From NCBI GenBank assembly GCA_023053545.1, contig JAKZAN010000006.1, forward strand, positions 2,919,001 through 2,983,000: a stretch of 64,000 nucleotides of DNA. Reading direction: 5' to 3'. This DNA comes from Lepidurus packardi (Eukaryota > Arthropoda > Branchiopoda > Notostraca > Triopsidae). The notes under the pieces were generated by a model, which was given only the letters and a program-made list of their open reading frames with translations, ran no database searches and was not told the origin of the DNA. The position numbers and the translations under genes were made by a program. This document shows, piece by piece, positions 1 to 64,000 of the stretch (its first letter is position 1; every line of letters begins with the position of its first letter).

Positions 1-881
1 TGACAAGTTGGATATCGTAGACCGGACACTGGCGGTGGCTTTGCTCACCATTCCTAACTTCCAAACCAAGAATAAAACTATACAGATTGTGTCCATTTAT
101 CCCTGGTCAATTTACCTCTTCTGGTCTCAAAACCTGACTTAGGTTGGCAGTATCTACATCTACCAAAACGGTGCAATGATGATATGCGTTCTTTCCACCC
201 AGTTTGGCAGCAGTACCGGAAATCTAAACAGAGGAGGCATGGAAACGGTTAAACTACTTGACTTTTTGCGTTCGTTCTGCAAGCAACTTCAATTACCTTG
301 TACTTGTTGTTTAGCATAATATCTTCCCGTTCATTGATGTCAACAGGAATTTCCCAGTTGGTTTTCAGAGCTTCACAAATTAGTTCCAAATTCCGTTTTC
401 TGTGATAATCAGCTCTGGTAGTAAAAAACGTACAATTCAAATTGCCCAGATCATGGTATACTGTCCCTCCACCACTATTTCGCCTTGCGAAAGATATATC
501 TAAGCTAGGGAAAATTCTGACATGAAATAAGAAGATTACGGTATCGGTGTCAGTTTTACCATTTTTAGCTAGCAAGGACAGGTTGGCTTCCATCCAAGGG
601 TTCTGATGCCGTCCAATAACCACACAAGGTTTATTTTGCCATAGTAAGAGCACTTGGTGTTTCGAAAAATCAAAATGACGATAAAGCCAATCCTCTAAAG
701 CTAAATTTGTAAAGATATCGTCAGATTGAGAAATAAACACTGAACGACAAACTCTTGCATCTTTGCACGCACTTGTGAAAGTTCTTTTCATATTTATCCG
801 ACAGATTTTCTGTGCATTTTTCAAGTTAGAAGTTGTCACGCTGAAACTGTGCTTGAAACTATGCATTGCCGTAAACAACAT
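1..881 (-). CDS. LIPT1: Lipoyltransferase 1, mitochondrial (3' end outside window)
   Basis: Exons 881-560, 499-297, 223-116 and 57-1 join in phase on the minus strand. The protein starts MLFTAMHSF with a basic, Ser/Thr-rich leader that fits a mitochondrial presequence. The lipoate-protein ligase fold follows: NLALEDWLY near residue 60, RHQNPW near 91-96, the hallmark RRNSGGGTVYHDLGN near 112-126, NKYK followed by ISGTAAKLG, and HHCTVLVDVD. This family moves lipoyl groups from glycine cleavage H protein to the E2 subunits of 2-oxo-acid dehydrogenases. The last visible residues (TASVRSTISNL) match the conserved stretch after the lipoate loop; the C-terminal domain lies off the edge. Introns are 60-74 bp. 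It is head to head with the protease gene across 2.3 kb. Confidence 0.93.
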
Positions 882-3224
882 TATGAAAAAATTTAATAAG
901 TCGGCAGTGGGACTATTTGCACCACATCAGGAGGCTATCTATACATACAAACTTTCAAAGACAGCAACAACGTTGCCCCTGGACGCAGGCTACCAGAATG
1001 CTGACACGGTCTCCGGATTTACTGAATGTGTAAATGTATTCCTTTATCAAAATTGACACTAGTGTGTCAGTTTCGAAAAAATAATTTTTTTAAGCTTTTA
1101 ATATTCTCTCAACTTAACCTAACCTAACCTAAGCTAACATATGTAACCAGTGAACCTGTTGGAAAATTTCAACAGGTTGTCCGGTTTCAGAACAAGAGAT
1201 AAAAATGACAATTTTTGTCATATTATTGGTAAACGTTCTCCAGGAAAAAGAATGACAAACAAGTGTCACTTGAGTTAAAAATTGGTAGTTGGAGTGGAAA
1301 TACATTAGGGTTGGTTAGCTTAGGTTGACGATTCTCTTAGATTAGCTTAGGTTAACGATTCTGATGAAAATCTTGTACAGTAATACCCGACTACGCGAAC
1401 TCGGAGATACGCGGTTCTTGATCTTGACTGAAGCAATTTTATTTCTGCACAGTTTACTGCTATGCAGGATGTGAATGTCAATGCCATACTCCAGTTTTTC
1501 CTTCTTAGCCTCGTAATGAGATTTTTCCTAAAGAATTTTTAATTTATTTCATTACTGTATGTAGCTGTAGCGGGCGGCAACCCGGCAACCCTGTCACCCC
1601 GCTAGCTTTAGTGTACCCCAACTTACGCGTTTTCCCTCGTCACACCTATCGCGTAACTTTGTGGTACTACTGTACATGTACTTTCTTTCACTCCATTAGC
1701 TGAAAACAGAAAAATCCATTGTTCGAAACTGACACACTAATATAATTTTGACAGCAGAATACACTACATAGGTTTGTCACTAAATCCGAAGAACGTGTTG
1801 AAATTTCCCGAAAAAAACGATCCGATCCCTGCCAATTTACGGTCAACGCTGGCCCGATCAGATCCGACCAAGTGATCAGGTCTGATCGGATCGCTTTTTG
1901 AAAGATCCGGAACACTGGTGAAATCATAGAGTAAAGATTCATATAGAGGGAACATCCCTGTGTATAAGACTTGTTGCCAAGAAATAGATGTACTACTTGA
2001 GCCAAACCATGGAAACGTTGACGAGTGTAAACAAAATCCGCCATGAGTGTGGCCAAATCTACTAGTTGCGTCACCCTATACTCTGTATGCACCGCAGCAT
2101 AGCCATGCCATATCTAAAGTATATATGATTTAAGGCTCGTGGCACGTTAATAAGCCTTCTGAGCGCTTGATGCCGGTAAAGTCGCTGAAGACGCAAAATT
2201 TTATAAAACAAATGTAGCTATAACGAATATTTTAAAAACCAGTTAAAACGGGTTAGTAAAGGATGATAAAGATTATCTTGGCAATAAATAACACAAACAT
2301 CTTAAAAACGGGAGTTTTTTCTTATCAATTAAAAATTGCTTTTAATTAGCAATTTATGTTGTAGAATGCATCATTAAAGCTAGCCTTCCAAATTATCCCA
2401 ACCGCTCTCATAACACAGGAATTTTCAAGCATTTCGATTTCGAAAAATACAACGCTGCTACCACTGACTTTCTACTAGAGAGGATCACGCCAAATTTTCC
2501 ACTCTGAAGTTAAGAGCTTTGTATACTAACAAACTTTCTACCTTGGACCGCAAATACAAGACTTCCGGGAGCGTCTTGCGTGCCAGGCTATTTAACTTTT
2601 TTTTATGTCAGTAGTGTATGCATAATCACTGTATAAATACATCCAAAAGAATTTTTATAAGCTGAGAATAATAGCAGGGAAAAGTTTGACGAGTTGTTGT
2701 AGTATATACGCAGTCCAGGACATTTATATAAGTTTCCGGAATGGGGGTATTTTGTCAAGAGAAAAGCGACCCACATTAGTCCCGGACCAATAGCACGCAG
2801 GCAGATGCTGCGGGGAGAAAAGCGAAAAAGAAAGTCCTTTCTCCTGTTGTCGGGAAAACTTTTTCCTTTTTATCAGTTTTCCCTGCCAGTTGATCCTTGA
2901 TCTTGAGCCTCGGTTACACGTACCTTGAGAGTACTTGCCAGTCCGTGTGTTTTTGCAATTCCGACCTGTCAGTTAAATCCCCTATTCTGTCATAGTTTTA
3001 CGAACAGTGCAAAAGATCTGCGATTACTCCTTCCAATTATAGTGCTTATTTTTTCCCCTTAATTTCCAGTTTCGTTATTAAGCAAAACCTTTCGTCATTG
3101 AGCAAAACCCAATCAGTTATTACCATTTCCACTGTAGTTCCACTTGTATTTGTAGTATTGCGATATTATCTTATCGGATCTCTAGTGACAAAGGGTCCAA
3201 TTGTTAACTAATTTATTTACAAAA
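882..3224. other. Intergenic region between LIPT1 and the protease gene
   Basis: AT-rich non-coding DNA with no convincing gene. It holds a short TTAGG-type repeat (1115-1133), a 21-bp direct repeat (1315-1335 and 1342-1362) and a GATC-rich patch (about 1820-1910). Short ORFs on both strands lack homology features or splice context. Confidence 0.6.
1115..1133. repeat. Short interstitial TTAGG-type (CCTAA) repeat
   Basis: Three consecutive CCTAA units, that is TTAGG on the other strand, the canonical arthropod telomere motif. The array is too short to be a telomere and is probably interstitial or chance. Similar scattered CTTAGGTT/CCTAAC words occur at 1309-1362 and 31,697-31,740. Confidence 0.6.
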
Positions 3225-5241
3225 ATGAAGTTCCTCTCTGTGATATTAATATTCCATGTATCCATGACTCAAAGCTTTCGATTCCCAGAAGAAGACGGGC
3301 AAGTTTATGGTGGACAACAAAGTGTGACTTTCCCGGGGCCTGCAAGTAAAAGATAAAAACGACTAAGCTCAAACTACCCATATATTAATGCTAAAATTTG
3401 ATATTCATTTGCTAACCTTTAGAAATCGAATGCGGTATAAGTCGCTTCTATCACCAACGCAAACCACGCGACAAAGACGACTTCAGTTCCGTCAACCAAA
3501 CCAGTCGTATGCTTGATTTGGATGCCGACGAAGAGCTCCACGAATCAGCTCGCATAATTAATGGCAAAGAAAGCAAACCAGGCGCTTGGCCATGGCAGGT
3601 AGAGCCCTTTTTAACTCCTAACAATTGTTTCTATCTAATATAATTCCAATAAAATAATTCCTTCTTAAAAGAAAGTAAAAGACGAAAAAGGAGCATAGAA
3701 AACGTGCTGAAAGATATCGGTTCGCTTTCTCGCAGCTCCAGTAAAATTAGCTTTGTAATGAAATGCGTTGTTTACACAATAAGAGCGTTCATAAGCTCTA
3801 GTAATTTTTCCACAAATCGTATGCTCATAAAATTACAATGTCCTTTACTTTTCAAGCTTTTTTTATTTTCCGGAAACTGTTGGCCTTGCCTGGCAGAACA
3901 ATGCACCCTCGTTAACTAACGCACCGTGAAAAAAAAAACTTGATTAAGTTGTTTCGCTCCCATGCTCCAGTTTTCCCTTTTCAAATAATATATATTCTTT
4001 GTTTGCTACTTTCTTACAGGTTTCCATTCATCTGATGCATCCTAAATGGGGTTTTATAGGCCATTGGTGTGGAGGCATCTTGATTGATTCAGAATGGGTA
4101 CTGACAGCTGCTCATTGCATAAAAAAGTACCTAACTCTTAACTATGTGATCCTTGAACCCAACCAAACTTTGCGTCCTTGTTTTTTCAAGTGATGCTTTT
4201 AACCTTCCATTTGGACAAATGTGGACTGTCGTAGTTGGGGACCACGACCGTACAGCTGAAGAGGGCCACGAGCAGCGACTTCAAGTAGATAAAGTAATTC
4301 TGCATGAGCGGTTCAAAGAATACCATAACGATATCGGTAAGTGCGAACATTTTTGAGTGACAGGTTACGCAGTAGAACGCGTGCTTATGCAGCTGACTGA
4401 CAGTACATGGAATTATCACTGATTAAGCATTCACCATCTCTGGCCTCTCAAAGCAGTTAATTAAACTTCTTTTTAAAAAATTATTTCAATAGCGTTACTC
4501 AAACTGACCCAGCCAGCTGCCTTGAATGACACTGATTACGTGCGACCTATCTGCCTACCGGACAAACTCGAATGGGAAAGCGAAAGTCAGACCAACACTG
4601 AATCCTTCCAAGGTAAAATTATCGAGACACAAATGATGATAACCCTTCTTAGATGAAGGAAGACATCTGAATTCTTTCTAAAAACTCTCATTAAAGACTT
4701 TATTTGCAGAAGGGTAATTAAAAAATTATACTCTCTATGAACAACTTAGGGATGAAATGCATTGCCAGTGGGTGGGGCCAGGCTCATCATGGCGGTAAAT
4801 TAGACAATACATTACATCAAGCTGCATTGCCGGTCGTGGAAACAAAACACTGTAAGCAAATGTATGGCATGATGTACAACATTCCCATCAACAAATATCA
4901 TTTATGTGCTGGTCCGTTAACTCAAGGCGGGATTGGCACATGCGTGGTAAGCATTATTTCACTCATCCTACCAAGAACTTATAAAATTCGTTATCAGAAG
5001 AAAACTAGACAAGCATTTCTGTTCTACAATGTTCTAACAATTAATGCTGCGAATTGATAACCAACAGGGCGATTCCGGTGGACCTTTACACTGCAGCATG
5101 AAAGACGGAAAATGGTATTTAGCCGGGATAACGAGTTTTGGTTCAGGTTGTGCCAAACCAGGATTCCCGGATGTTTTTACTCGAGTAACTTATTTCATGC
5201 CCTGGATCCGGGGGAAGCTCCGCCTTTATGCAGAGCTTTAA
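3225..5241 (+). CDS. Secreted chymotrypsin-fold (S1) serine protease zymogen
   Basis: Seven exons: 3225-3345, 3423-3598, 4020-4126, 4191-4336, 4493-4612, 4750-4946 and 5068-5241, total 346 aa. A signal peptide ([17 protein letters not shown]) is followed by a prodomain of about 67 residues with one Cys (IECGIS), expected to stay disulfide-linked to the catalytic chain. There is no clip, CUB or LDLa domain. Activation is expected at R/IINGKE. The catalytic triad is complete: TAAHC, NDIALLKL and GDSGGP. The residue six before the catalytic Ser (chymotrypsin position 189) is Gly (I-G-T-C-V-GDSGGP), not Asp, so trypsin specificity is unlikely; elastase- or chymotrypsin-like specificity is an inference. 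A polyadenylation signal AATAAA lies near 5279. The third exon follows an unusually long (421 bp) intron for this region. Confidence 0.92.
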
Positions 5242-54532: not shown

Positions 54533-56825
54533 CGGAAATGTACCATATGCTTAGAGCTTTGTGAATTTCCGGCAGCATATCTTCCGCTTTGCGTAGCACT
54601 CCGAGTCGAGAATGCAACTCAGGAACTAATTCGTCGTGCTGTGCTTTCCAAGCTTCATTGACGTGACGTTCTAAGCCTAAGGGCAAGAACAGGAAAATAA
54701 TAAAAAAACAACAACAAAAAAACACTAACGGATGACGGAAAATCTTAATGGGCATACTTTGGGATTTCAGGCGACCTCTGTCGACCCAGTCGTTGCTAGA
54801 TTCCTGCATGTTTGCCACGTGCCAAACATGCCACGACTTTTGTTTCCGAGTTTGCAGCTGTAGGTTACCACAGACCGTCAAAACGCGTTCCGGTGACAGG
54901 AAACGCTGGGCATCCAAACCTTGCAACATCTTCCGTAGCTCGCCATCAGCTTCGCACTCATTCGATCCGGATACAGCGGGCAAACAAAAACGGTAAATCG
55001 CCCTAATTTTAATTGTAAATTAAGCAAGTGTAAAATAATGAAAAAAAGCTTGTTACTTGGCTTGTGAAATGGGTGACAACTGCCAAATGGGAGTTTTAGA
55101 TAGATCCTGAACCAGACTTGCAATCGGGTTTTTATTTCCCGTGAGTAGAAGATCCAATCCTGCCATGTGCCCTGGTAAATCAGATTTGAGTATTTTGTAA
55201 TTCTTGTGTTGACAGTCCCCTATCCGTTGGCCCACGCCAATATTCCTCTTCGCTACAGTCTTGATCATCAATGCTAAGCGATCCTAGTAACAGGAAAAAA
55301 ATATTTTTCTATTTTTGCAAAACAAGAAAACTGATACCGAAATAAGGGTATTTTCTTCAACTTTAGACAAATTAGTTTTCCACTCCTTTTGCTGCTCTTC
55401 CCAGGAAGCATTCTGCCGTTGAAACTCTTCCATTGATTTTTTTAGGTAAGCAATGGCAGCTTCAAGCTTGCTGGTCTGTAACTGAAGTGAAATATACACT
55501 CGTGCATTTTGCAGAAATTCAGGCTCTGGCCCGGTTTGTTCCTAAGATGTTTATTTATAACATTTAAAGAACGAAACATACGCGACTGTGCACCTCTAAT
55601 TGCAAGTAGATTATTCGTTCCATTTGTTCCAAGTTTCCCTGTAAAGCTGCTAGTACTTTCTGAGATTTATTCGTAGCCAGCTTTGATTTGGCGTGAAGCC
55701 ATGACAGCTCTTGTAGCAACGACTGTAGGGACTTCAGCCCGTACTCTTCGTCGCTTTCCAGCTTCAACCTATGACAAGAAATTTTACCTTCATTAAGTCT
55801 TATGCTTTGGAAAAATTTACTTCAATTCTTCAGCATTTTTATGCCAATCCATGTTTTGGCTCTTCAGCTTCAACTGAGACAAATTAGCAACGAGATGTTC
55901 TTCCAAGCATTTTAATAAAAGAGTCGATGAACCCTGTGACATAAGCTGCTGGGTTAACTGTACCAGCTGCGTTTTGTTGACTTGACCAGATCCATGCAAA
56001 CCTGCTTCCAAGAACTCTTCAAACGTTTTGCAAGTTTCGGTAACTACCAACTTAAAAATTTCCAATTTAGTAGCTAAAATTTAACGTTAGAAGACCACTT
56101 TACCTTATAGCTATGATAGTCTGGCTTCTCATCACACAGTAATCCGTCCTTCACGACGTCCAGCCCTGCTCTGAGCTTAGAATACCGTTCGGTCTGAAGA
56201 GCGACATTTTCCCCATATAATCGAAGCATAGATTCTGATTGATGTGCATTATGCTTGCCCTTTTTCAACTGAATCGATGATGTTTCTTAAGGAAAATGGT
56301 AACATTAGCTAAACAAACGCATTTCAGAAAGTTACCAGTGTCGGAAATTCGTTTCCTAAGATCTTGACAAGACGATTGCGCCTTTTCCAACGTCTTTTCC
56401 AAATTTGTGACTTCTTTGGCCAGATCAAGTTCCTCTTGTTCCAGCTCGATCAACTTCAGGTCCTAAGTCATTAAGTTTTTTTTTTTCAGAAAGAAAAGCG
56501 AGTAGTATGCGGGTACCTTAGATTTCGGGCTCTTTTTCAAGTTGTCGAGTCTCAAGTTGCTTTTAATGTGATTAATGTTTTCAGCAGACTTGACGCGTGT
56601 AATAAAGAACGACCATAAATCCTGATATTGCCCTTTGCATATGCTAGAATTAAAAATTTTCCAATAAAAAAGAGCGTTTTCACGTTTATACAACCATAAT
56701 AAAAACAATGTTTCTACGCACCACTTTAAGTCTTCTACAGAGGGACTTATGTTGCAAGGATTGTGACCAACCATTTCTTCAGTCAGCCACCTGTGTAAAG
56801 CCACAACTGTGTTATCCGTTTCCAT
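54507..56825 (-). CDS. HAUS5: HAUS augmin-like complex subunit 5
   Basis: Ten exons: 56825-56722, 56643-56517, 56462-56336, 56285-56136, 56073-55821, 55768-55582, 55541-55338, 55283-55057, 55002-54758 and 54676-54507, 597 aa. WLTEEMVGHNP, then CICKGQYQDLWSFFITRV and NINHIKSNLRLDNLKKSP match the HAUS5 N-terminus; the rest is mostly coiled coil (ELEQEELDLAKEVTNLEKTL, LEAAIAYLKKSMEEFQRQ). Augmin recruits gamma-tubulin to spindle microtubules for branching nucleation. The exon 4/5 junction is the weak point: the obvious GTAAAG donor would leave only a 30-bp intron and the wrong frame, so I used GTGATG (62-bp intron, in frame). The coding end overlaps the modelled PNT tail by 26 bp. Confidence 0.82.
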
Positions 56826-56829
56826 CCTT

Positions 56830-57051
56830 CTATTCTACGTCCAATACGGGTGATACACAGATGGTGTTATTGTTTGAAAATTTCCTTCTATGTTTGCGTG
56901 TTTCAATTTTCGTTTCCGTTCGGTGCGGTTTAAAATCCGCCGCTGCTTCAACATGACGGCTAAGAGCTGACCAACTTGGTGTCACTAAAATACAAAATGC
57001 GAGCAGAAAAACTCGAAACGCCATGCGAATCTGCATTTCTGCTTGGTCCAT
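56830..57051 (-). CDS. Small signal-peptide ORF immediately upstream of HAUS5
   Basis: 73 aa from the first ATG, or 64 aa from the ATG at 57024, which gives a textbook leader (MAFRVFLLAFCILVTPSWSA) followed by a basic, Cys-poor peptide (KPHRTETKIETRKHRRK) ending CVSPVLDVE. The stop is four bases (AAGG) before the HAUS5 ATG. Either it is a separate small protein, a dicistronic message with HAUS5, or an upstream ORF with a chance hydrophobic start. No family recognised; the reading is only supported by the leader and position. Confidence 0.35.
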   Translation of the reverse strand: MDQAEMQIRMAFRVFLLAFCILVTPSWSALSRHVEAAADFKPHRTETKIETRKHRRKFSNNNTICVSPVLDVE

Positions 57052-57953: not shown

Positions 57954-60607
57954 ATGACCGAGTCGACAACCTACGATAAGCTTTTTGGGGTAGATTACAG
58001 GGGCGGTGGTCAGGAGCCAAAGTTCAGTTTTTTTCAGTCTACCAAAGGTAATACAGTAATGTACATTTATTAATTGAGTCATTTTATGATGTTTAACGGT
58101 TATATCTTGACAGGGAAAGTGTTCCTAGGAAGTTTAGTGGCGATTGCCGTCATTTCGACAACGACAGCAGCTCTTACGATGGCTTCTCAGAATCAGGAGC
58201 AACAAGCTGAGGCTGCAAATCCCCAACTTTCATCCGCCGTAGCCCAAGCGACAGCGAAATTTTGTTTGGATCTTTACAAAGTATTCGCTTTAGTTAGTGT
58301 TCAATACCTTCATTTTTGTTCTATTTTTTTTAGGATGTAGCTTCCAATGTACAGAGCTCTGACAACATCTTCCTCTCGCCTTTTAGCATTAACGCCGCCC
58401 TGGGAATGACTTTGGCAGGGGCCAGGGGGAACACTGCATCGCAAATGATAGCAGGATTACATTTGCCTCAAGATCCTGATGTAGTTCATGCCGGATTCCA
58501 ACAATTACTTAGCCAAATGAAGAGCAATGAGAATTATACCCTGGAAACTGCCAACCGTATGTATGTCAACCAGGGATTCAAGCTGCTAGAAAGCTTCCAA
58601 ACTTTATTGGAAAATAATTATTTGGCTTCTGCCGAGAACGTCGACTTTGCTGATGAAACCAAGGCACGTACATCAATCAACGATTGGGTGGCTGAGATTA
58701 CGAGGCAAAAGATTAAAGATTTGATTGCTCCTGGTACTAAAAAAAAAAAAAAAAAAAAAAAATCTAATTGTGTCACTTGTTAATAGGTATTTTAAACGAG
58801 CTAACTCGTCTGGTACTAGTGAATGCCATTTACTTCAAGGGAAAATGGAAGAAACCGTTCGATAAGGAAAATACTATCGATCGTCCTTTTCATACATCCG
58901 CATTGACGTCAGTGCAAGTTCCTATGATGCGTAGAGAGGAAAGTTTTCGTTTGGGTTACCTGGAAGATCTGAAAACTCGCGTTTTGGAGATACCTTACAA
59001 TGTAAAACAAAAACAAAATTTTATAAAAAAGAAAGGCTAATATGGTAATCTTGATTAGGATCCGAGGTTGGCTATGCTAATTTTCTTGCCCGATGAAGTA
59101 GAGGGCATTAAACTGTTGGAAGAGAAAGTGCAGGATTTACCCTTGTTGGACATTGACTCACTTTTGCGTACCACGAAAGTAAACGTGGTTCTCCCCAAAT
59201 TTAAAGTGGAGCTTTCAGTTTCACTCAATGATCATCTCATGAACGTAAGCTTTTCAAAATTCAAAGCTTTTTCCGGTCAATTCATAGTGTTATTATTTAT
59301 ATGCAGTTGGGCATCACGGATCTGTTTGATGGGAAAAAAGCTGATTTGTCTGGTATTACTGGCCGTAACGATTTGGTCGTTTCTAAAGTCATTCATAAGG
59401 CGTTTATTGAAGTAAACGAGGAAGGTAGCGAGGCTGCAGCAGCCACTGGTAAGTTCATTTTCATTAAAGATTACATTCGCATGCTTTGCTTGTGGCGTCC
59501 TTTTGGTTTTTTGAAAACGTTGTTGCTTCTTTAAGAAAAATAGTTGAAGGGTTGTGTTGTCATTATTTTATATCGGTTACAGCTGCGGTGGTGCGTATGA
59601 AACGGTCCATGGATATGGGACCAGAACCTTTTATTGCGGATCACCCATTTTTATTTAGCATTCGCGATTCTCGCTCAGGAATCCACCTCTTTATGGGAAG
59701 ATTAACCGAGCCTCTTTCTGTGATGAAAGTAGGAGCACATGATGAATTGTGAAATTTTTTTCTTAAACATTTGAAAGGCAGCATTGATGAACTTTAATGT
59801 GAGGCACGCGCGGCTTTGGGATTTTTGTGTATTTTTTTTTTACTTGGTCTTGTATTCTTCCGTTCGTTACTCGTTTAAAAGCTTTACAACAAACATGAGC
59901 GCACTCAAAACTTCGAGTTGATTCACTTTTATTTTACACAGCTGTGATCATGATGTTGCGTTCCATGCCGATGAATAGGACTCCGCCCTTTGTTGCCGAT
60001 CATCCCTTTTTGTTTATGATAAGGGATTCGGTAACCAAAGTCGTTCTATTTGCCGGACGTTTGGCTGCTCCGCAGTAAAAGGAAGTAAGAAGTACTTGCA
60101 CATAATTGTTTGGCTGATTGCTAGTAGTCGCAATCGATTCAATTGCCTCTCTAAGTCATCTTTCGACCGTTCAAAATTTTACAATTTTTCGTCCCTAGCC
60201 TTCAAACGTGTGATTTTGTAATGAACGGTCAATAGTTTTTATTCCGGAAGGAAATGTTTTATGCTTATTTTTGGTGGCAGAAAACCTGTATTACATAGCT
60301 AGTTTACAACAATACAAGACAAGGAATTGCAAACATTCTGCACAGTAGTTCGTGAATTGTCCCAGGGCTATCATATTCACATTCGTATGTAAGCTTGACT
60401 TTGTTTTCTGTGTGCTATTGAAATATTGAATAACATCTTGAATCTGAATGTTCCTTTCTCCTAGCGGTGGTAATGATGGAGTGCTGCGCTATGATACATG
60501 AAGCCCCAATTCCGCAGTTTGTCGCAGACCATCCCTTTCTGTTTATCATTAGAGACTCAAAAACCAGTTCTGTACTATTTGCCGGATGTTTGAGTCTACC
60601 ACACTAA
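57954..60607 (+). CDS. Serpin with three mutually exclusive reactive-loop exons
   Basis: Constant exons: 57954-58047, 58114-58280, 58334-58733, 58787-59001, 59059-59244 and 59307-59448. Alternative last exons: 7A 59583-59752, 7B 59942-60078, 7C 60465-60607; each starts in phase 1 with Ala and ends with its own stop (about 450 aa). Serpin landmarks: [64 protein letters not shown], and the inhibitory hinge [13 protein letters not shown] ending constant exon 6 at P8. Loops: 7A VVRMKRSM with C-terminal HDEL; 7B VIMMLRSM; 7[10 protein letters not shown]. Each then has [10 protein letters not shown] and IRDS. 7A matches Drosophila Spn42Da (Spn4A), a furin inhibitor retained in the ER. The N-terminus has 31 residues before a hydrophobic stretch ([19 protein letters not shown]), a signal anchor or internal signal; an ATG at 58,087 would give a plain leader. 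Confidence 0.93.
58739..58762 (+). repeat. A24 homopolymer at the start of a serpin intron
   Basis: Begins six bases into the 53-bp intron (GTACTAAAA...). Short intron, so the tract occupies nearly half of it. Confidence 0.9.
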
Positions 60608-60723
60608 GTATTTTTGCCACGGAATATTTACACAGCCATTAGTATTCTTTGTGCTCTGAATAATGCAAGTGGGAAGGTACACTTGCATTCATTTAAGTTA
60701 TAACACTACACGGTATTATGTAT

Positions 60724-60810
60724 AATCGAAAATCATCACTCTTGTTTCTCATAAGGGATTCTGAAACCAAATTCGCACTCTTCGTTGAACGCTTGGTAGC
60801 TCCGCGGTAA
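60724..60810 (+). pseudogene. Decayed fourth reactive-loop exon of the serpin
   Basis: Reads LLFLIRDSETKFALFVERLVAPR then stop, aligning with the end of exons 7B/7C ([18 protein letters not shown]). Upstream the frame shifts at ENHHS, where ADHPF is expected, and no loop or splice acceptor remains. Relic of tandem exon duplication. Confidence 0.75.
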
Positions 60811-60978
60811 TAGAAATAACCTATAACTTTCGGAATACAAGAGCAGTACAAGAATGTGAAACCTCGTATTTTCTGAAGTGTTTAAACTTTTTGGTTATAT
60901 GCTTTAATTCTTAGTATCTCTCAAGTGTTCTTGTGTATATAGCTCCTTTATTTGTGTTCTAGTATTCTGTAAACATCA

Positions 60979-61028
60979 AGGAAGTTGCTCCGCTTCGTAT
61001 CGCTGCTGAGCATCCGTTTCTGTTTTAA
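60979..61028 (+). pseudogene. Decayed fifth reactive-loop exon of the serpin
   Basis: Reads KEVAPLRIAAEHPFLF then an in-frame stop, aligning with [10 protein letters not shown] of exons 7A-7C. The RCL part is gone and the IRDS region is not in frame. Confidence 0.6.
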
Positions 61029-61687
61029 TGGACAACAATTAAAACGCCAAATTGGTACTCTGCTGATGTTTGATTCAATTCACCGTGAAAAGCTACTAGT
61101 AGATGAAAAAGTTCAGGTTGAATAGTCAGATAATCGCTGTAGTCTCTTCCTATGAAATTTTACGCGATTTTTTTTAGTATTTTGAGTAACGAATTCCTAA
61201 AAAGTTCCAAGTTTAAATTTTGGTTCGCTGATAGTGGTTCGTGGCTTATGATGTAGTCGAACAATGAAGAACAGGAAGACATAAACGTTAAACGTAGCCG
61301 AAGGCGGCGGTTCTACGCGTTTGTTTTGATTCTTGTGTACTACGTATTCTTCGAAGAAAATAAATTATGAATTTTATAGTAACTAGATCTGATATTTGTC
61401 AATGAGTTGGGGAATTTTTAACCGTGTAAACTCCACACAGCAAGTAAGTCCATACACTTAACTTGCTATATTGTATGTTTAAATTTAGAACAATCAAATA
61501 CATAATATAAATAATCGAAGCTTGTTTCAAGACCCAGTCATGTTGACTCATTTATGGTTTTTGTATGGAACCTAGATATAAGTTAGAACTTAACTAGTCA
61601 AGCGTCAAGGTTCTGCATGAGTAATTGACTCATTTCTTTTTTCTTTTCTAGGAAACAAATCAGAAGTGTGGGGTGACGGGCATTAAA
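61029..61687. other. Intergenic, serpin to RALGAPB
   Basis: No gene supported. A CTAG acceptor at 61,651 shortly before the RALGAPB ATG suggests a non-coding 5' exon upstream of it. Confidence 0.5.
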
Positions 61688-64000
61688 ATGATGTACAATG
61701 AATGGACATCCTTAACTATCCAGCTGCAAAATGGTGAACTGGGTCTTGGTGGTAATTCGGTTTTATCAAAATTCTCCCCTGAAGCTGGGAAGGAAATTGT
61801 TTCAAGAGTTGTCCAGCCTATTGCAGCCAATCTTGGCTTGAATTCAGAAGCCAGTAAATTGTCCACCCAGCCGGAAGTGGAATGGTGTATGGAAGTAAGC
61901 CTTTCTTGTTCCCTCTTTAGCCCTATCAGTATAAAATTTTGTTTTGTAGGTTTTATGCTATGGGCTGAGTCTGCCCTTAACAGAGCAAGATACCATACGA
62001 GATTGCGTTCATGTCTATTGCGAATGGCTTACAGCAATGCTTCCTTCTCCAAAAGCCACAATTCCACTTCCTATCTTAGACTCGCCTAATGTCTATTCCA
62101 GGAAAATCATTCAACATTTATACAATCTTTTCGTGCCACGACGAGGAGATGGTATGTTTAACAAATTTCTTAACTTCATGGCTTAACTCTTAAAAGCTAA
62201 TGCGCGTATGTTTTATTCATGTCATAAGCGTTCGTGTTCCTGGAAGCAGGTTAATTTACTTACCTTTTGTGAAGGAAGGTTTTAATTTTTCATTTACAAA
62301 GTTTACTATTAAAATTCGCTCTAGCTCCGGACGTTATTAACCGACAAGCCATGCTGTGTCATCGTGTTTTGAGAATTTTGCAAACCGTTGCTCAAGCTTC
62401 GACTATAATTGAGCGAGACACTTGGGAAACTTTTCTGTTATTTCTTTTGGCTGTTAACGATGCCTTGCTTGCTCCTCCCACCATCAAAGGTACTGGCCAA
62501 GTGCTTCAAGCTTGTCCAAAAAAGAAAAGCTAATGAAATTAATTTTTCAAAAGACGATATTGGAGACCAGCTTTGTGACCGTGTTCTTAGCGTTTTGTTC
62601 GAAGTTTGGCTTCTGAGCTGCGCGCGCTCATTTCCTTCACCTTCCTTATGGAAAACATTCAATGAAATCAGTCAAAGTTGGCGTCACAGACCTGGTTTGG
62701 TTGAACATTGGACGCGAGTCAACGCTGTGATGACCTCTAAACTCCTCAAAGTTACCCATGGACCGGATTTCCCAGAACTTAAAATCCGTAATTGGAATGT
62801 TTTAAAACTTTACAGTTTAATAAGTTTAGATTGTAGTAGATGAAGAAATGAGTTTGCTTCCTTCGGATCTCAGCTCAGAAGCTGTGGCACAAAGTTGGTA
62901 CCGCTTTTTGCACCTACTGGGCAATCCCAATCACCTTTGCCGCCCAGAACTTATTTCTCAAACTCCCAAGTTCCTTCAATTCGCTATTCTCAGCTCTCAA
63001 GTCGTCGACCCCAGCCAGCACCCATGCTTGGTTGCACTGCCTAACATTTTCCTGCGAGCTATGAGAGGTCTAGCTCTTCTTGTCGACGCTTTCTTAGGTA
63101 AGTTCTGTTTTTTCCTCGAAAAAAAGAAAAGTCAGGAAACATTTAATTAATGCCTTCCAGGGCTACCTTCTGCGCATTACGACATGAAAAGAGAAGCAGG
63201 AAGTGGTCACGCTGCTGGGCCCATAACACCACCTATGCGCCGACCTACGAAAAGCTTTTCGGGAGCTACAGCCAATTTGTCCTCTGCAGCTTCAGCAGCA
63301 TTTGGTAATTTTCCCCCTGAGCTTATTTGTCTTGTATTTTTCGCAATATTCGTTTCAGGTTTAGCTAAAAATAGTGTGTCAGGAAGTCGAGGGTCGTCCA
63401 CAGGGACCAGCGGTCCCGTGTCATCTTCTTCATCCATTTCTAGTAATTCTTCTCTCTCATCACTCCCGTACGAGCAACCCAAAGGCGCGCCCACTCCTCT
63501 TCGACCGCGTTGCAACTCGATTCTTCATCTGTTTGGTGACTGGCTCTTCGAAGCCGCCTTGTTAGGGAGCACTCTCGGTTCTCGTTAGTCTATATTTGTA
63601 ACTTTGTATTTGCAGATTAACTGGACATCCCTTTTTCTTTAGGACCACCAGCTGGTACACAGTTGCGAAAACCATCTCCACTTCTAACCGAACGCAGAGG
63701 GGTCACTGATAAACCTAATTTAGGGTCTCAAGTCTCTTTCGCAGTGGGAAACAGTAGTTCCGAAGAAAATTGGGGTCGCTACGATAGCGGGCGTGCTGAA
63801 GCGGTGGGAACATTATGTCGGATTTTCTGTGCTAAGAAAACGGATGAAGAGATCCTGCCTGTTTACTTGGCGAGATTTTACATTGCCTTGCAACAAGCCT
63901 TAAAGATTCCCGAAGTAAACAGTATTGCTCTTAATGGAATATTTCGTGACTTTTTTTTATTATCATAGGATCGAATTTGCAATGAAGTCATGGCCAGTGT
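61688..64000 (+). CDS. RALGAPB: Ral GTPase-activating protein subunit beta (3' end outside window)
   Basis: Exons 61688-61894, 61950-62151, 62325-62489, 62554-62787, 62840-63097, 63161-63304, 63359-63583, 63643-63914 and 63969 onward, all in phase. [128 protein letters not shown] and [35 protein letters not shown] all match the N-terminal third of RALGAPB, the non-catalytic partner of RALGAPA in the RalA/B GAP that feeds TORC1 signalling. The Ser-rich linker after 63359 is shorter than in mammals. Confidence 0.95.

Follow-up and report, generated by a model that had tools for sequence, protein, structure and literature searches.

The 64,000-nucleotide stretch of the Lepidurus packardi genome analyzed here, referred to as the window, contains a serpin gene on the plus strand, in which six core exons are followed by three tandem terminal exons, here called cassettes 7A, 7B, and 7C. 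The start of the gene for the augmin subunit HAUS5 was located just upstream of the serpin gene in the opposite orientation (56463-56834, minus strand; Pfam score 26.6 bits versus a cut-off of 25.6). Another gene was located downstream (61402-64000, plus strand), which we take by eye to be RALGAPB-like; a Pfam search of three exon frames of this gene gave no match. The introns of the host genome were short. It was also noted that the globin matches in the same genome were mostly paired, about 550 to 610 bases apart (10 of 13), which resembles the two-domain hemoglobin clusters of Daphnia and, with the short introns and the assembly size of 108.6 Mb, would fit a branchiopod.

Exon 1 of the serpin gene (57954..58047) starts with an ATG in the context ACAAACATGACC and contains 31 codons plus one base, which encode a hydrophilic n-region, and ends at the donor AAG/GTAATA; an in-frame ATG further upstream (57864) has a weaker context than that at 57954. 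Exon 2 (58114..58280) encodes a hydrophobic segment, after which the serpin fold begins, and the serpin body continues through exon 3 (58334..58733), exon 4 (58787..59001), and exon 5 (59059..59244). Exon 6 (59307..59448) ends in phase 1 with GSEAAAAT and a single G, the first base of the P7 codon, which places the end of the constant body at the Thr in P8, as the sequence-only reading had claimed. The P15 to P9 hinge consists of small residues and is of the inhibitory type.

All donors of the core exons (57954-59448) were GT and all acceptors were AG. The donors were scored with an approximate matrix, for which the 3355 GT dinucleotides in the window gave a 99th percentile of 3.94 and a 90th percentile of -0.005. 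With this matrix, the exon 6 donor (CTG/GTAAGT) obtained the top score among the six core donors (6.75), and 3 of the 6 donors scored low (58280, -3.52; 58733, -1.26; 59001, -1.11). A tract of over 20 consecutive A (GTACTAAAA..) was located directly 3' of the intron 3 donor (58740-58761), beside a weak splice donor, and is possibly variable in length.

The boundaries of the span 59583 to 60607, previously marked as a reactive-loop exon array, are correct to the base: 7A begins at the first and the stop codon of 7C ends at the last position. Cassette 7A (59583..59752) contains an RMKR bait at a spacing of 18 residues and a C-terminal HDEL, while cassettes 7B (59942..60078; AVIMMLR/S) and 7C (60465..60607; AVVMMEC/C) have the canonical spacing of 17 residues and no ER motif; all three are on the plus strand. 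The acceptors end with ACAG in 7A and 7B, and with CTAG in 7C. As had been proposed, the three terminal exons are intact and compatible in phase. When joined to the constant body, their frames contained no internal stops and predicted full-length serpins of 457 (7A), 446 (7B), and 448 (7C) amino acids, with 412 to 415 bits to the Pfam Serpin domain (PF00079), covering positions 2-370 of the 370 in the model for the 7A and 7B products and positions 2-367 for the 7C product. The HDEL tetrapeptide was confirmed to be the true C-terminus of 7A. A constant exon that stops at the hinge, followed by tandem terminal exons of compatible phase, is the arrangement of a loop-switching serpin gene. Since each cassette has its own stop codon, translation of a hypothetical 6-7A-7B mRNA would end at the 7A stop and yield the 7A product.

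Cassette 7A is tightly flanked by a 16-nt AT-rich inverted repeat (59530-59545 and 59752-59767). Pairing between the cassette flanks was considered as a switch for exon choice and rejected, as none of 4 flank pairs stood out; the observed energies were reached in 269, 20, 76, and 98 of 300 shuffles each, and the pair involving the 7A inverted repeat was the weakest.

The position of the scissile bond in 7A had been left in doubt between Lys/Arg and a loop that is one residue longer, with the Arg of RMKR at P1. With P1 fixed at 17 residues, the P1/P1' pairs are indeed Lys/Arg in 7A, Arg/Ser in 7B, and Cys/Cys in 7C, but a comparison with the structure of Drosophila Spn42Da (PDB 4p0f; chain sequence EEGTEAAAATGMAVRRKRA) settles the question in favor of the longer loop in 7A. 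The hinge-to-P1 segment of 4p0f is EEGTEAAAATGMAVRRKR/A, in which P1 is located 18 residues from the first hinge Glu. The authors of the crystal paper assign P1 to the final Arg of RRKR, where the electron density ends in one crystal form (PMC4006314). Because the 18-residue spacing is common to 7A and 4p0f, we assign P1 of 7A to the Arg of RMKR. In this register, R-x-K/R-R ends at P1, and the 7A bait is of the furin type, with R-M-K-R at P4 to P1 and Ser at P1'.

We consider it about 75% probable that the locus is a single serpin gene of the inhibitory type, in which a constant body is joined to one of three alternative last coding exons and 7A provides an ER convertase trap. Each of these exons would supply its own version of the reactive loop, from P7 through to the C-terminus. 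Splicing of exon 6 to 7A is predicted to give a serpin with a terminal HDEL and an R-M-K-R/S bait, in which P1 is residue 18 of the hinge count, and this form would most likely act in the early secretory pathway, where it would trap furin-type proprotein convertases like Spn42Da-A. Splicing to 7B (Arg/Ser) would give a form without a retrieval tag aimed at trypsin-like proteases, and splicing to 7C (Cys/Cys) another untagged form, the target of which could possibly be cysteine proteases. The exon anatomy, the phases, the open frames, the register, the HDEL, and the constraint on the cassettes can be read directly from the sequence, and the splicing, ER entry, and protease targets in this scheme are predictions from it.

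The overall design is the known insect one. The presence of a furin-type RMKR bait and HDEL in a reactive-loop cassette encoded by one exon is supported by the sequence, as is the likeness to Spn42Da that had been pointed out, which extends to the 18-residue spacing, the HDEL, and the position of the furin cassette as the first in both arrays. In both Spn42Da (also called Spn4; isoforms A/B with RRKR and HDEL; PDB 4p0f and 4p0o) and the Lepidurus gene, a constant body is followed by tandem loop exons, one of which carries R-x-K-R at P4 to P1, and a choice of N-terminus is possible. However, Spn42Da contains two core exons and four cassettes, whereas the Lepidurus gene contains six core exons and three cassettes, and the P1' residue is Ala in Spn42Da and Ser in 7A. 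Furthermore, the signal peptide of Spn42Da is encoded by a separate alternative exon, whereas the hydrophobic stretch and an internal Met are both encoded by exon 2 in Lepidurus. The two proteins are about 40% identical over 389 aligned positions. The furin cassette is reported to be the first in drosophilids and to be kept in all those compared, while the other cassettes turn over (PMC2770083); in the Lepidurus array, too, the RMKR cassette comes first, and dead remnants are located at its far end. Among the serpins of the fly, the Spn4A form has likewise been called the sole one with HDEL (PMC4147316).

A splice at the end of the hinge with an extra G, as in exon 6, is reported for Pteromalus PpSerpin-1 and, in 161 of 192 genes, for the loop-switching serpins of insects, along with both intracellular and extracellular N-termini (PMC10513286). 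PpSerpin-1 has 21 C-terminal forms as compared to three in the Lepidurus gene, and the words HDEL and furin had 0 occurrences in the accessible text of that paper (PMC10513286). Mutually exclusive loop exons have also been described for Manduca sexta serpin-1, with 12 variants generated by exon 9, and the accessible part of that description does not mention an ER or convertase form (PMC1761132). Outside the arthropods, the lancelet Spn-1 has an NMMKR/S bait and KDEL, an ER motif like that of 7A, and no cassettes are described for it in the accessible text (PMC2556349). The P4 Arg of 7A is shared with the fly form, and M-K-R/S at P3 to P1' with lancelet Spn-1. No crustacean loop-switching or HDEL serpin was named in the titles and abstract openings of the literature matches listed. 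What the Lepidurus gene adds to the known design is a settled register, two dead remnants, an old paralogue with a single cassette, and a possible internal cytosolic start.

At least 25 serpin matches at no fewer than 7 loci were identified in the 108.6 Mb assembly. The closest paralogue, L009, is located on the minus strand of the same contig as the main gene (C5:9919795-9921364), and its introns are in identical places. The bodies of the two genes are identical at 245 of 347 positions, with a dS of about 1.05 and a dN of 0.19. L009 contains a single 7B-like cassette with Phe/Ser at P1/P1' in the 17-residue register and Gly at P8, which is identical to 7B at 32 of 44 positions, to 7C at 23 of 44, and to 7A at 22 of 43. 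Thus, 7A and 7B, which are identical at 26 of 44 positions and saturated at synonymous sites, have diverged more from each other than 7B has from the L009 cassette, and with the bodies at this dS, the retention of 7A probably reaches back beyond the duplication that separated the gene from L009. Most simply, 7A and 7B would have split before the gene duplication, with 7A retained ever since, although this is tentative because the exons are short and may have been subject to gene conversion. The sequence upstream of the L009 start looked foreign to the gene (L009 region 1-3500, C5:9919001-9922500). Another serpin on the contig, L011 (2060-3100 in C5:3243801-3248500), has a last exon frame that extends about 300 Pro/Ala/Ser-rich residues past the serpin core.

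The sequence evidence suggests that the gene works like Spn42Da, and the orthology results point both ways. When Spn42Da was compared with the 7 genome loci after assembly, 4 of which were put together only roughly, the score was highest for the main gene (246 bits), followed by L009 (207), L011 (191), L014 (188), and the others (122, 119, and 41). The best match of Spn42Da to any single stretch of the genome was an intronless serpin on contig C1 (176 bits). In searches against PDB, the best match of the gene body was serpin B1 (308 bits), with 4p0f in ninth place (258 bits), so the body is not specially similar to Spn42Da. The 7A tail alone matched only two neuroserpin chains, both weakly (E-values of 0.25 and 0.4). 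PDCD10 is reported to adjoin neuroserpin in deuterostomes, while this linkage is absent also in fly and worm (PMC2556349). Linkage to PDCD10 as a mark of a neuroserpin orthologue was not found in Lepidurus either, where PDCD10 is located on contig C2 and the serpin on C5.

The chance is slightly below even that 7A and the furin cassette of the fly are of independent origin, with RxKR and HDEL gained convergently within a common loop-switching frame. Consistent with this, the fly exon is not a near match of the complete 7A, with 4p0f in 44th place among the 82 PDB matches of 7A. The bodies of Spn42Da and the Lepidurus gene also do not group in a tree of 10 rows, which contained no supported fork and placed Spn42Da loosely with neuroserpin, apart from the main gene. 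The literature, too, cautions about homoplasy in this family (PMC2556349). Yet the spacing, the tetrapeptide, and the first position in the array are all shared with the fly cassette, and the M-K-R/S of 7A at P3 to P1' recurs in the NMMKR/S of lancelet Spn-1, which argues against convergence. A bolder proposal, which we regard as speculative and rather improbable, is that a single ancestral first cassette gave rise to both 7A and the furin cassette of the fly, and that it predates the split between insects and branchiopods and had the lengthened 18-residue loop, R-x-K-R, and an ER motif, on a line that would also join the deuterostome serpins with M-K-R/S and KDEL (lancelet Spn-1 and neuroserpin). 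If this is true, loop-switching was added onto an ancient guardian of the secretory pathway. We take the last intron, in the P7 codon, to be at the 352a position, present also in vertebrate neuroserpin. Another intron, which interrupts the Gly codon of DLIAPG in the body (58733/58787), was placed by hand and may correspond to intron 174a of lancelet Spn-1.

The labels "ER-retained" and "secreted" that had been given to the different forms would depend on the hydrophobic segment in exon 2. This segment of 19 residues has a mean hydropathy of 2.05, the highest among the stretches sampled, and begins only after 33 residues counted from the ATG at 57954; at this distance from the start it could anchor the protein in the membrane instead of being cleaved off as a signal. 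A scan for upstream first exons returned 25 top candidates that were not separated by the score, which was derived from exon 2 itself. In addition, Met 54 (MASQNQEQQ..; 58179..58181, plus strand) is an internal, possibly cytosolic start in the favorable context CTTACGATGGCT. In L009, only this internal MAS Met has been kept (MASPKQEEQ), and the upstream hydrophobic stretch has apparently been lost. These features, together with the report that a signal peptide is lacking in half of the isoforms in the fly (PMC4006314), fit a situation in which the 7A form is mainly cytosolic or membrane-anchored, the HDEL is idle, and RMKR baits some other protease of trypsin-like or dibasic specificity.

We judge this to be unlikely, as a terminal HDEL is rare by chance and is located on the same cassette as the furin-type site. 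Only 1 of the 1240 open-frame ends in the window (at least 30 amino acids, six frames) matched the PROSITE-type ER motif [KRHQSA][DENQ]EL, namely that of 7A, which was also the only one of the 9 serpin C-termini read in the genome (7A, 7B, 7C, and L009 to L014) with an ER motif. Moreover, two in-frame ATGs in intron 1 (58086 and 58089) would give a shorter leader with the look of a conventional signal peptide, and both starts could serve side by side, so that the gene could give rise to cytosolic products as well as to secreted or ER ones, as in the fly.

Two remnants of dead cassettes on the plus strand 3' of 7C show that cassettes in this array also die. The first (60714..60810) has lost the loop half, ends with LFLIRDSETKFALFVERLVAPR and a stop, and is 62% identical to 7B over 97 nt. 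The second (about 60966..61028) was recognized by its translation, SVNIKEVAPLRIAAEHPFLF followed by a stop, and contains a stretch (61005-61025) that is 86% identical over 21 nt to 7C (60524-60544). The remnants are in line with the possibility that one or two of the three cassettes are in decay and that the gene in practice makes a single form. In addition, the bait of 7C, Cys-Cys, is odd, and separate poly(A) signals are absent for the three cassettes; the sole AATAAA within 59700-61420, a candidate poly(A) signal, is located at 61359..61364 on the plus strand, and none was found after 7A, 7B, or 7C before that position, which counts against three separate last exons. However, the acceptor, the phase, the reading frame, and the ADHPFLF core have been kept in all of 7A, 7B, and 7C. 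The dN value of 7B versus 7C (0.30) is far below the dS value (1.15), and between 7A and 7B the proportion of differences was much higher at synonymous (0.83, 30 sites) than at nonsynonymous sites (0.33, 102 sites; Fisher's exact test on rounded counts, P = 1.6e-6), indicating that the cassettes are not chance frames. Cassettes with Cys at P1 (C/S) are also reported from several drosophilids (PMC2770083), and a gene with dying cassettes appears distinctly unlikely. Finally, a scissile bond at Lys/Arg in 7A at the canonical 17 residues, which would make the bait trypsin-type rather than a convertase bait, is very improbable, because although the distance from the hinge to the FxADHP core is equal in 7A and 7B and an ungapped reading puts Lys at P1, the equally spaced 4p0f has its P1 at the last Arg of RRKR.

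The finding in a branchiopod of a furin bait with HDEL in the first cassette and other baits behind it means that this arrangement reaches beyond the insects. If the gene is functional as proposed, both the secretory pathway and the extracellular space would again be served by a single gene. The combination of a serpin-poor genome, with at least 7 loci, and one loop-switching gene also agrees with the trade-off reported for insects, in which alternative exons are balanced against gene copies (PMC10513286). A common origin of neuroserpin and the arthropod convertase inhibitor was left undecided in 2008 (PMC2556349), and the matter was termed "becoming clear" by a co-author of that study in 2015. 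Lepidurus provides an early-branching arthropod in which this can be asked, the point of interest being whether the ER convertase cassette was invented just once, long ago.
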